Of a stretch of 64,000 bases of DNA, positions 4,734-39,418 are shown piece after piece (position 1 is the stretch's first letter; each line of letters begins with the position of its first letter). The DNA lies in assembly GCF_000014345.1 (NCBI RefSeq), contig NC_009879.1, positions 821,501-885,500 on the forward strand, read 5' to 3'. Position numbers and translations under genes: made by a program. The DNA comes from Rickettsia canadensis str. McKiel (GTDB lineage Bacteria; Pseudomonadota; Alphaproteobacteria; Rickettsiales; Rickettsiaceae). The notes beneath the pieces were generated by a model. It did not search any database. It was given only the letters and a program-made list of their open reading frames with translations, and was not told the DNA's origin.

Positions 4734-5624
4734 ATGACTAATAATATTAATGCATTAGCAATCTCTAGCGAATCAGGATTTTATAGCTATTTACAGAAAA
4801 TCAATAAAATCCCTTCACTTACACAAGAAGAAGAATTTTTATTAGCGAAATCCTATTTAGAGGAAAATGATTTAAAAGCTGCACATAAATTAGTAACTAG
4901 CCATCTTAAGCTTGTTGCGAAAATTGCAAGCGGCTATAGGACGTACGGTCTTCCTATTACCGAATTAGTTTCAGAAGGTAATATAGGTTTAATGCAGGCA
5001 GTAAAAAAATTCAACCCTGAACTTGGTTTTCGCCTATCAACATATGCGATGTGGTGGATTAAAGCCGCCATACAAGAATATATATTAAAATCTTGGTCAT
5101 TAGTAAAGATGGGCACAACAGCCGCACAAAAAAAGTTATTTTTTAGCCTTAACAAAGTTAAGCATAAAATTACTAATTTATATTCAAGGGCTATTACTAC
5201 TGATGATTTTGTACAAATAGCAGATGAGCTAGGTGTTTCAGTTAATGAAGTTTCCGAAATGAATACTAGAATTTCAGGTCCTGATTTATCGTTAAATAAC
5301 TCTATAAATAGTGACGATACAGAATCAGGAGAACTAATAGAATTATTACCGGAAACACGCCCTACTCCCGAAGCTATGGCTATTAATAAGCAAAATTATA
5401 CTACTAAAAAGCACTTACTAGCAAGTGCTATGAAGATTTTAAACGATAGGGAACTTCGTATTTTAACAGAGCGTAAATTAAAAGATACTCCTAAAACTCT
5501 AGATATTTTAAGTAGTGAGTATAATATTTCTAAGGAACGTATTAGACAAATAGAGAATACGGCGTTTGAAAAAATAAAAAAGTTTATTTTAAAACATAGT
5601 AGAGCAGTAAATGTCATGCCGTGA
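4734..5624 (+). CDS. rpoH: RNA polymerase sigma-32 factor (heat shock)
   Basis: A 296-residue sigma-70-family factor that directs RNA polymerase to heat-shock promoters. Region 2 is seen at about residues 55-120 (ELVSEGNIGLMQAVKKF, STYAMWWIKAAIQEYI). The RpoH box QKKLFFSL is at 132-139, which separates sigma-32 from the housekeeping factor. The region 4 helix-turn-helix is at the end (ISKERIRQIENTAFEKIKK). The last codons (Val-Met-Pro-stop) lie inside a palindromic repeat that begins at 5611, so the repeat supplies the natural end of the gene. It diverges from ctaG. Confidence 0.95.
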   Translation: MTNNINALAISSESGFYSYLQKINKIPSLTQEEEFLLAKSYLEENDLKAAHKLVTSHLKLVAKIASGYRTYGLPITELVSEGNIGLMQAVKKFNPELGFRLSTYAMWWIKAAIQEYILKSWSLVKMGTTAAQKKLFFSLNKVKHKITNLYSRAITTDDFVQIADELGVSVNEVSEMNTRISGPDLSLNNSINSDDTESGELIELLPETRPTPEAMAINKQNYTTKKHLLASAMKILNDRELRILTERKLKDTPKTLDILSSEYNISKERIRQIENTAFEKIKKFILKHSRAVNVMP

Positions 5625-5712
5625 CTTGATCACAGCATCCAGACAAACAACTTAAAACACTAATAATTTTAGTATTTTCACTGGATCCAACGATCAAGTT
5701 GCGGGATAACAT
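5611..5712. repeat. Palindromic repeat at the 3' end of rpoH
   Basis: The left arm starts ATGTCATGCCGTGACTTGAT and the right arm ends AAGTTGCGGGATAACAT; they pair over about 32 bases with a few mismatches. It belongs to the group recognised by GTCATxCC...CTTGAxC...ATCCAG and also seen at 7187, 8199, 13663, 38945 and 41530. It overlaps the last four codons of rpoH, including the stop. Confidence 0.8.
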
Positions 5713-7132: not shown

Positions 7133-7262
7133 TATGTCATTCTCGCACAAGCTTTTTTGTGTAGGACGGTAAATCAGTTGTAATCCCATAACTTGATCGC
7201 CGGAAAAATCCAGTCTTTTTTAATTTTTAACGGATAGCGTGGGTCAAGCCACGGTATAACAT
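7133..7262. repeat. Palindromic repeat between tolB and thyX
   Basis: A 130-bp spacer made of repeat sequence. Positions 7187-7262 show the paired arms CATAACTTGATCGCCGG and GGGTCAAGCCACGGTATAAC of the group described at 5611. The left part (TTATGTCATTCTCGC) is a second, truncated fragment. It ends seven bases before the stop codon of thyX. Confidence 0.7.
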
Positions 7263-13626: not shown

Positions 13627-13744
13627 TGATGTCATTCCTACGAACGCGGGAATCCAAAAATGATTGTCATTCCACGACTTGACCGTAGTAGGATCCAGTT
13701 AAAAATATTGCTTTTGGATACCGCGGTCAAGCTACAGTATGACA
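13627..13744. repeat. Palindromic repeat that ends the cysQ-like gene
   Basis: The arms GTCATTCCACGACTTGACCG (13666) and GGATACCGCGGTCAAGC...GTATGACA (to 13744) pair, with inner GGATCCAG. Same group as at 5611. A second fragment (GATGTCATTCCTACGAACGC) precedes it. The right arm holds the stop codon (13727-13729) and the last residues (His-Thr-Val-Ala) of the neighbouring minus-strand gene. Confidence 0.8.
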
Positions 13745-14506
13745 CTTTGACACTTTTTCCAACCAATATTTGCTACAGGCGAAAAAATTAGGATTAGCAA
13801 AATTTTCTTTACCGTAAGTAATTTCTTTTCCATCGCAATCTAAAATATTACCGCCACCGGCTCTAATTAAAGCATGACCTGCCGCTATATCCCACTCCAT
13901 AGTTTGACCGAATTTTGGATATATATCAGCTGCTCCTTCAGCAATTAAGCATAATTTGATTGAGCTACCTACGGCATTTATTTTACCGAATGAATATTTG
14001 CTTAAAAATTTTTTAGTAGCTTTATTTGAATTATAAAAACCTATTACTGCATTAAATTCCTCTCTTTTAGATTCGTAGTTAATAGGTATTTCTAAAGAAT
14101 TTTGTTCGATTTTTAATTGTTGTTTCGCATTTGTATAATATAATTTATCCGCTGCAGGTTGGTATACTAAGCCAATGGTCGGAATATTCTTTTCAATAAG
14201 CCCTATATTTACTGTATATGTACTTTTACCGTTTACATAGCTTCGTGTCCCGTCAATAGGATCGATTAACCAAAAAGTATCACTACTTAATATAGGTAGC
14301 GGCTGCTCTTCACATACTATAACTATTTGTGGGGTTAAGGTTTGTAGAGTTTGATAAATTATTTTACTAATTTCCTTATCGGCATTAGTAACGAAAGAAC
14401 CGTCTGATTTAATATCAGTCAATATTCCTGCCTTTTTTATATCTAGTGCAATCTTACCAGTATTAATAATTAAATCTTTTAAAGCAGCTATTAAGTTATT
14501 GTCCAT
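13727..14506 (-). CDS. cysQ: CysQ-like 3'(2'),5'-bisphosphate nucleotidase (inositol-phosphatase family)
   Basis: A 259-residue Mg-dependent phosphatase. Metal-site motifs are present: EE at 66-67, DPIDGT at 82-87 with flanking FWLIDPIDGTRSYVNG, and EWDIAAGHA at 204-212. The pattern with TVNIGLIEKNIPTIGLVYQP and a late YGKENFANPNFFA is closest to CysQ, which degrades 3'-phosphoadenosine 5'-phosphate. Inositol monophosphatase (SuhB) is the alternative. The C-terminal residues and stop codon come from the palindromic repeat. One base separates it from the end of the upstream DUF2608-like gene, suggesting cotranscription. Confidence 0.85.
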   Translation of the reverse strand: MDNNLIAALKDLIINTGKIALDIKKAGILTDIKSDGSFVTNADKEISKIIYQTLQTLTPQIVIVCEEQPLPILSSDTFWLIDPIDGTRSYVNGKSTYTVNIGLIEKNIPTIGLVYQPAADKLYYTNAKQQLKIEQNSLEIPINYESKREEFNAVIGFYNSNKATKKFLSKYSFGKINAVGSSIKLCLIAEGAADIYPKFGQTMEWDIAAGHALIRAGGGNILDCDGKEITYGKENFANPNFFACSKYWLEKVSKCHTVA

Positions 14507-16339: not shown

Positions 16340-16612
16340 AATACCATTTTGATTGTCATTCCTAAGGCTTTTTATGTCATTATTCCCGCGTATGCAAGAA
16401 AGTGTTGTTGCGTGGTTCGGTTTCCGCCCTGATCATTGTACGGCGACTTGACCACTAAATCCAGTTAAAAATACTAAAATTATCAGTAGTTTAAGTTGTA
16501 TTTCTATATGTGTGGCCAAGCCACGGTATAAAACACTGCACGCGTTTTCCACTCCACACAACAATTTGCTTACACAGGAATGACATAGATCCACACCGCT
16601 CGCAATGACGAA
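16340..16612. repeat. Cluster of palindromic repeat fragments
   Basis: About 270 bases built from pieces of the same dispersed repeats: GATTGTCATTCCTAAGG, CGGCGACTTGACCACTAAATC, GTGGCCAAGCCACGGTATA, and a right end CACAGGAATGACATAGATCC. The clear pair is GACTTGACCACTAAATCCAG with GGCCAAGCCACGGTATAA. No coding content seen; it fills most of the spacer upstream of the DUF2608-like pair. Confidence 0.65.
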
Positions 16613-37897: not shown

Positions 37898-39418
37898 ATG
37901 TTTATTCAAAACACCATATTTGCATTGCCACTCGCTAATTTTGAACTTGCTTTTGACCTTACCCCTCAAAATCAATTAATAGCATTAGCATTCTTAATTG
38001 TTACCACTATCTTAAATCTTTATACAATTTCTCAAAATAGAAAATTTGAGACGCTAATAGGTAGTTTATACTGTTTATCATCTATTATATGTGTATTGGC
38101 AGCTGATTTTATTTCTATGATCATTGCGTTTGAATTCATGACGATTTTTGCCTGCATAATTATTTTTTGTTACCAATTAAAGATAAAACCGGTACGCCAA
38201 TATTTTCTTACACATTTATTCAGTAGCGGGTTAATTTTAATTGGCATGACTCGTCTAATTCAAACAACAGGTAATACAACTTTTATCCCCTTAAATGAGT
38301 TAGTATACAATGCTGAATTACCTGCAATATTCATACTTGCAGGTTGTTTAATTAATGCCTCAGCGATTTTTGTAAACGGATGGGTTGTTAATTGCTATCC
38401 TATAGCTTCAAGTAGCGGTGTTGTATATTTAATTAGTTTTACTACTAAAGTTACTTTAATTATCATTTTAAAATTATTTAGTGGTCTTGAGATACTTAAG
38501 TTTTTTGGAATATCAATGATCATTTACGGGTTAGTATTTTCTCTAATTGAGAAAAACCTTAAACGATTGATATGTTATCTTACTGTATCACAGCTTGGTT
38601 TTATATTAACAGCTATTAGTATAAACTCACCTAGTATTGCTTATCTTATTACAAGTTTTATATTCATACATATATTATATAACGGACTATTTGCTTTATA
38701 TTTCACTTATATAGAAGATGAGTACAATATTAAAAATTACCAAGATCTTAAAACTACCACCAATCCTATTTTACTAATTGGATTTATAATTAGTATATTA
38801 ATATATACCTCTATACTACCTATTAGCTCTTCTTACATCAAAGATGAAATAGCTAATATTTTAAACGCAAATAATGTAATGCTATTTGCCAAGATAGTAA
38901 CTTGTACCGTGTTATTTCGGTTGTTGTTGGAAAGTATAGGTGATTTATCATACCACGACTTAATCGCGATATCTAGAAAAAAAATAAACAATGATAATAA
39001 ATATTTATGGATACTGCGATCAAGTCGTGGTATGATAAGTGTGGTCTACCTCTCTTTCTGCATCATAACTTTATGCGTATGTTTATTCTATCCTGTTCAA
39101 ATACCACATACTGCTAACTTCAAGCTAGTCATTCCTGCAATCTCGCTATTATTAGCTTTAATATTTAGAAAAATACCACGTATTTCAACACAACACATCA
39201 ATCTTGACTTATATCAATATATTGAAAAACTTATATATTTTAGTATCGCTAAATATAAAGAAACTGCAGACAATAACGAAGATACAGAAGAATATCTTAA
39301 TTTTAAAGTTATTTGGGTTAACATTTTAAGTAAAATATTTGCTTGGCATAATCAACAAACTGCTATATTTATTGTATTATTTCTATTAATTAGTTTGATT
39401 TTAACATTGCAATATTAA
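37898..39418 (+). CDS. Mrp D-like proton-conducting membrane protein (third), with an in-frame palindromic insertion
   Basis: A 506-residue polytopic NuoN/MrpD-family protein. Early helices show the conserved Glu (ADFISMIIAFEFMTIFACII). The channel region is atypical: VNGWVVNCYPIASSSGVVYL replaces the usual Lys/Pro-His segment, followed by SFTTKVTLIIILK. Residues about 350-381 (SYHDLIAISRKKINNDNKYL and a short tail) are encoded by a palindromic repeat at 38945-39038 and form a hydrophilic loop between helices. The reading frame passes through without a stop. Cotranscribed position at the end of the antiporter cluster, six bases before ptrB. Confidence 0.85.
   Translation: MFIQNTIFALPLANFELAFDLTPQNQLIALAFLIVTTILNLYTISQNRKFETLIGSLYCLSSIICVLAADFISMIIAFEFMTIFACIIIFCYQLKIKPVRQYFLTHLFSSGLILIGMTRLIQTTGNTTFIPLNELVYNAELPAIFILAGCLINASAIFVNGWVVNCYPIASSSGVVYLISFTTKVTLIIILKLFSGLEILKFFGISMIIYGLVFSLIEKNLKRLICYLTVSQLGFILTAISINSPSIAYLITSFIFIHILYNGLFALYFTYIEDEYNIKNYQDLKTTTNPILLIGFIISILIYTSILPISSSYIKDEIANILNANNVMLFAKIVTCTVLFRLLLESIGDLSYHDLIAISRKKINNDNKYLWILRSSRGMISVVYLSFCIITLCVCLFYPVQIPHTANFKLVIPAISLLLALIFRKIPRISTQHINLDLYQYIEKLIYFSIAKYKETADNNEDTEEYLNFKVIWVNILSKIFAWHNQQTAIFIVLFLLISLILTLQY
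38945..39038. repeat. Palindromic repeat inside the third antiporter gene
   Basis: The left arm (38945-38973) begins TTATCATACCACGACTTAAT and the right arm (39010-39038) ends CAAGTCGTGGTATGATAA. Over 29 bases they match at 26 positions. The centre is AT-rich. The arms carry the same TCATACCACGACTTGATCGC signature as intergenic copies (for example near 13666), here within an open reading frame. Confidence 0.92.

Follow-up and report, generated by a model that had tools for sequence, protein, structure and literature searches.

The window analysed is a 64,000-nucleotide stretch of Rickettsia canadensis str. McKiel (contig NC_009879.1, positions 821,501 to 885,500), within which an open reading frame on the forward strand (37898-39418) encodes a protein of 506 amino acids. 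The protein was found to match PF00361 (Proton_antipo_M) in a profile search and scored 949 bits against the NCBIfam model NF005139, 'putative monovalent cation/H+ antiporter subunit D'. Immediately upstream, separating the second antiporter-like gene from the third, lies a gene for a PIN-domain protein (PF01850; 37512-37889), which is possibly the toxin of a toxin-antitoxin system.

A palindromic element was identified within the antiporter-like gene at positions 38945-39038 (+), corresponding to residues 350-381 of the protein when numbered from the ATG, and the reading frame was unbroken across it. The preliminary description of this DNA had reported a 94-bp in-frame palindrome here, which was borne out by the arms, the fold energy and the open frame; the arms had been described as complementary, which they are, and as 29 bases long, while they were measured at 35 nt each (38945-38979 and 39004-39038, 24 nt apart, 86% complementary). 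The predicted fold energy was -37.8 kcal/mol compared to a mean of -10.6 for shuffled sequences (sd 2.7; z -10.2), and none of 200 shuffles folded as well. The element was resolved into a head-to-head dimer of CGTC-type REP units, with a first unit at 38946-38976 (+; tag TATC, 7 of 9 stem pairs, loop 5, tail CTA), a spacer at 38977-39006 (+) and a second, inverted unit at 39007-39037 (-; tag TATC, 7 of 9 stem pairs, loop 5, tail CCA). It belongs to a group designated type A, a label of the present analysis, as are B and C.

The host protein was modelled with AlphaFold (mean pLDDT 77, pTM 0.79, 52 sequences in the alignment), giving helices at residues 325-347 and 377-397 on either side of the insert, and residues 349-377, i.e. 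the insert, formed the only long stretch with a pLDDT below 50. Hydropathy was consistent with the model, the insert being hydrophilic with a helix on either side, and the loop region aligned with the end of ND2/NuoN-type chains in a profile comparison. The insert is thus predicted by the model to be a disordered loop joining two membrane helices, and the earlier proposal of a mobile palindrome from a dispersed family, placed in frame in a hydrophilic loop between two membrane helices, was upheld. Net charge was +3 to +6 in the nine full-length inserts for which it was computed, which would suit a cytoplasmic loop.

Purifying selection on the parts of the gene flanking the insert was evident in four groups of orthologues, with dN/dS values of 0.22 (type A), 0.25 (type B), 0.24 (bellii-type B) and 0.29 (type C). 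The corresponding values for the insert were 0.61, 0.97, 0.00 and 0.85, of which the bellii-type value (dN 0) rests on few codons and the type C value includes a reversed copy (see below). The gene is therefore constrained around a peptide that is nearly free to change in three of the four groups. Stop codons close to the C-terminus in 2 of 22 orthologues (L028 at 515 of 516; L032 at 495 and 509 of 514) could be taken to mean that the gene is a pseudogene or is untranslated, so that its open frame carries no meaning. The flank dN/dS values and the lack of any stop codon inside the insert in all 20 occupied orthologue rows leave that reading with a negligible probability, and it was rejected. 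In R. conorii, a guanylate kinase that carries an RPE was reported to be translated and active (PMC2229807, in the part accessible).

Further copies were located in the window by searching for half-units, which gave 10 matches in all, those of the focal element included, against 0.03 expected. Four other type A pairs were found, at 5616-5707 (overlapping only the last codons of an ORF at 4734-5624), 7183-7257 (intergenic), 13669-13740 (intergenic apart from an overlap with the final 14 nt of an ORF at 13727-14506) and 16438-16529 (with no ORF over it), as judged against ORFs of 90 amino acids or more. The preliminary description had noted the same signature in copies between genes, which these four pairs confirm, and had regarded the repeat as otherwise intergenic, which does not hold: among the seven best-matching places in the same genome (G000; 1,159,772 bases) one more lies within an ORF, identified as ubiB (TIGR01982, 615 bits against a cut-off of 488), where the copy is again in frame. 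In total, 46 matches to the element were obtained in this genome at E <= 1, with both strands and weak matches counted.

CGTC-tagged REPs were defined by Di Nocera (2013; PMC3733652) and, in the accessible part of that paper, are described as mostly head-to-head dimers without a dedicated transposase and as fewest in R. canadensis; intragenic R. conorii copies are equated there with RPE-4 and RPE-6. The element studied here shows the head-to-head dimer and the genome dispersal that define the CGTC-4 REP (RPE-4), and it is in frame and free of stop codons as are the intragenic Rickettsia palindromic elements. It differs from the REPs described in that part of PMC3733652 in a decayed tag and decayed unit stems: both arms carry TATC, neither CGTC nor TGTC, and each stem retains 7 of 9 pairs compared to the CGTC-4 stem of 9 bp, which starts with complementary AT. 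The TATC tag was read as decay because orthologues satisfy the CGTC/TGTC definition, the type A copies of G018 and G014 carrying TGTC and having 5' units with 9 of 9 stem pairs, a loop of 5 and tail CCA, like CGTC-4 as given there. In tag, stem, loop and tail, the type A orthologues and type C (stem of 8, loop of 4) agree with the families treated in that source, CGTC-1 and CGTC-4. No Rfam family was found at the gathering score. The best sub-threshold match, over 38946-39037, was to the Wolbachia sRNA family WsnRNA46 (34 against 65.3 bits), a family that may itself derive from a palindromic repeat.

Of 23 genomes of the genus, 22 were found to encode the host protein, the exception being G016, which is 88% complete. 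The preliminary description had named a clean gap of about 94 bp in the orthologues as support for insertion, and no such gap was observed: a palindromic unit occupies this loop in 20 of the 22 orthologues aligned, 12 of these 20 being of a different family, and the two without a unit (G017 and G020) are too diverged there for a clean gap. Nor is one and the same segment shared by all lineages, as the family at the site differs. Type A (GTCATACCGCG...) was present in eight genomes (G000, G018, G008 (R. oklahomensis), G022, G014, G015, G001 (R. akari) and G002), type B (GTCATTGCGAG...) in eight (G021 (R. tamurae), G005, G006 (R. hoogstraalii), G004, G013, G003, G012 and G011) and type C (GTCATTCC...) in four (G009 (R. 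rhipicephali), G010, G007 (R. kotlanii) and, as a single unit, G019). Types B and C are unrelated to A and to each other, though all three belong to one superfamily of dimers. Peptides of these three kinds were also recovered from a wider protein set, of which 52 of 85 were aligned. By eye, two proteins (P0016 and P0034) may hold nested or re-framed versions of the insert, and the loop differs in the proteins of R. typhi and R. prowazekii (P0024, P0026), where it may represent a decayed element. One orthologue (L033, from G005) carries a further palindromic insert, in frame and about 49 residues long, at residues ~288-337 of the host gene, seen in none of the other aligned orthologues (n=22 in all). 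Its peptide looks like RPE-1, to which we presume it belongs; like the elements in the loop it is a coding palindrome in a Rickettsia gene, here in the same host gene, and it differs from the focal element in family, in its longer peptide and in its site in the protein.

The sharing of sites by different RPE groups was already published in 2013, when 18 genes were reported in which one site carries RPE-4, -6 or -7 depending on the group (PMC3767692). In the accessible part of that paper, six species are compared, R. canadensis not among them, and the choice between a hot spot and a common origin is left undecided with a leaning to common origin. RJP_0300 ('NADH dehydrogenase subunit N') is among the entries of its Table 1, where R. 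felis has RPE-7 and spotted fever species have RPE-6. In G010 the distance from MnhB to the host gene is about 21 kb, with the true nuoN elsewhere (at 756 kb), and RJP_0300 lies 16 gene numbers from RJP_0284 (mnhB), which at 1.32 kb each gives the same distance of about 21 kb. RJP_0300 is thus very probably the host gene, assuming that G010 is collinear with R. japonica, and type C would then very probably be RPE-6 and type B RPE-7. By elimination, and from PMC3733652 as far as accessible, type A, and with it the focal element, is most likely RPE-4/CGTC-4. The host gene was thus very probably among the published cases of site-sharing by RPE-4, -6 and -7 (PMC3767692), and the elements treated in the accessible part of that source resemble those found here in being dispersed palindromes of about 100 bp that lie in frame, have ATGAC ends and occupy one orthologous site with different groups. 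Insertion of such a repeat into a multi-pass transporter had been called less ordinary in the preliminary description; the case is less unusual than that, given the intragenic RPE-4 and RPE-6 and the shared sites, transporters included, in the accessible parts of PMC3767692 and PMC3733652, together with the ubiB copy.

The reading favoured in what is accessible of PMC3767692, that RPE-4, -6 and -7 go back to a single ancient insertion and diverged in place, draws on the GTCAT...ATGAC ends common to A, B and C, which that paper noted and which were seen here in all three types. The change of family at the site is, however, abrupt. A type B gene (L026) and a type A gene (L019) were 88-100% identical in all segments outside the insert and 25% identical inside it, the figures for L022 (B) and L024 (C) were 81-98% and 38%, and no intermediates between A, B and C were present at the site in 22 rows. 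Each family also gave matches in all 23 genomes at E <= 1e-6 (in most genomes part of the candidates was scored, which indicates presence only), and the B element of the Pyrocoelia endosymbiont matched a copy elsewhere in G005 at 95%. These dispersed family pools and abrupt swaps go against divergence in place, which was rejected as very improbable.

Turnover at the site was also apparent on trees built with the insert excluded. The protein tree (22 rows) required seven state changes (minimum 3), a number as low being reached in 0 of 200 shuffles, and the DNA tree (20 rows) required six (minimum 2; 1 of 200 shuffles as low). AU tests rejected a single clade for the eight B rows (p = 4e-49), the four crown B rows (6e-9) and the eight A rows (1.5e-4). 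The trees carry no direction of change; our reading is that A would be the older state in the crown, because its spacer is closely similar among the type A orthologues and the dS of A inserts (0.354) is near that of their flanks (0.303).

Such turnover could come from a plain hot spot, at which CGTC dimers insert independently at a local DNA feature, old copies are lost and the loop is tolerated with no interaction with a resident REP. In agreement with this, type B lies in a different reading frame in G003, G012 and G011 than in the other five B rows, so that at least those are separate events, and the dS of B inserts (0.187) is below that of their flanks (0.412). Units were, however, also found to cluster at two further places, which makes one local motif unlikely. 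One of these directly follows the antiporter-like gene's stop codon (to ~150 bp downstream, L017-L035), and units were present there at 18 of 22 loci; in the rest of the region of about 1.5 kb on either side of the host gene they occurred at only 4 of 22 loci. One of the loci is cut short, and a shuffled control of the unit scan gave 0 hits over 271,680 bases (one strand). The units behind the stop codon were of mixed families, with A and C together in G004 and G005. In the R. canadensis window no unit was found behind the host stop codon, and the next ORF begins 7 nt after it.

The other place is ubiB, whose site was occupied in all 22 genomes aligned, G020 being left out as its gene matched in two pieces. 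Type A was found in five, B-like in ten and C in six, where the unit scan had flagged 18 of the 22 rows and G009, G010, G015 and G007 were typed as B-like by eye. The remaining dimer, in G013, was an A/C chimera, with one side formed by an A unit and the other by a C unit. The ubiB tree gave six changes (minimum 3), with 0 of 200 shuffles as low. At the antiporter loop itself, decayed half-units adjoin the present element in three lineages examined, shuffles doing as well in 3 of 2000 cases for the bellii-type lineage, 1 of 2000 for G010 and 0 of 2000 for G009. The chimera, the co-occurrence of A and C units downstream of the stop codon and the decayed half-units favour exchange at sites that are already occupied, and independent insertion at a plain hot spot is accordingly considered unlikely, although with some weight left to it.

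Alternative occupied alleles could also have been spread between Rickettsia species by allelic recombination. The Pyrocoelia endosymbiont and R. tamurae have identical B arms in genes that are 65-82% identical over most segments and that share 90% identity over the 11 codons following the insert; that same stretch is, however, also 87% identical to a type A gene, and identity upstream of the insert stays at 65-80%. Another protein (P0025), whose gene is 64% identical, was seen by eye to have nearly the insert peptide of R. rhipicephali together with the next residues. In close pairs, on the other hand, the edges of the swap are the element's own ends with no wider tract, and recombination of alleles appears rather improbable as the source of the pattern.

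In one case the element was found to have opposite orientations at the same site in two genomes. The C element of G010 agreed with that of G009 (R. rhipicephali) at 98% in reverse relative to the gene and at 76% in direct orientation, while the flanks were direct; the C element of G007 agreed with the G009 orientation, and the frame in use is open in both. No reversal was observed among nine other orthologous pairs of G010 and G009 (3 C, 2 A and 4 B), one of which lies in a segment inverted as a whole (the non-orthologous L066/L068 being left out). In G001, the loop of the first A unit was seen by eye to be reversed.

Co-variation of the arms was assessed in six of the eight A rows, the two gapped ones being left out. 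Of the arm pairs, 91.7% still pair, and 7 of 30 had changed on both sides, as many being reached in 2 of 500 shuffles. The covariation score (0.291) was above that of all 500 shuffles and dropped to 0.036-0.124 when the partner was slid by 1-3 columns, while further pair types were fewer than in 499 of 500 shuffles. As the six rows are related, co-variation of the arms is suggestive only; it may reflect hairpin-templated correction or the replacement of both units.

The Y1 transposase (PF01797), whose association characterises REPs mobilised by RAYTs (REPtrons), was detected in only 10 of 23 genomes and was absent from 13, although all 23 carry the repeats, and it is unsupported as the mover. 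The gene was present in at least 89 copies in G011 and at least 121 in G019, mostly of equal score.

The account we hold to be probable, taken as a whole, is that of a type A dimer in a tolerant loop that has become a docking site and exchanges with other REP copies. Selection would retain only in-frame, stop-free insertions in a tolerant loop, and the loop would now be a standing docking site. The resident palindrome may be a preferred target for other REP copies, or may be exchanged with them unit by unit, through a putative activity acting in trans. Hairpin events may correct the arms against each other and could reverse an element in place. Neither a transposase mover nor an exchange event was seen in the data, and this counts against the account. 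We put forward only tentatively, as something possible rather than expected, that certain loops of core proteins serve as standing docking sites for CGTC REPs; once taken, such a site would stay occupied while families are exchanged one unit at a time and elements reverse in place, rewriting about 30 residues of a conserved membrane protein over and over with the frame kept.

Compared to the accessible part of PMC3767692, the present analysis adds a third family at the site in an R. canadensis-type case, dispersed pools and with them evidence against divergence in situ, the reversed copy, the co-varying arms, and ubiB, a gene missing from its Table 1, with the chimera. In PMC3733652, as far as accessible, the recB genes of two Xanthomonas species are noted to hold different REPs at nearly the same position, while family turnover or reversal in Rickettsia is not described. 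The literature searched, which included few subscription papers, yielded no description of in-place reversal of an element or of an A/C chimera within a Rickettsia gene.

Small DNA parasites appear, from the sequences compared, to have been swapped repeatedly within a working gene, and the manner of this swapping we infer to be as proposed above. On the question raised in the accessible part of PMC3767692, hot spots or one diverged insertion, the present comparison goes against divergence in place, and exchange at occupied sites becomes testable. A working gene can thus carry for a long time a replaceable peptide that is encoded by selfish DNA.
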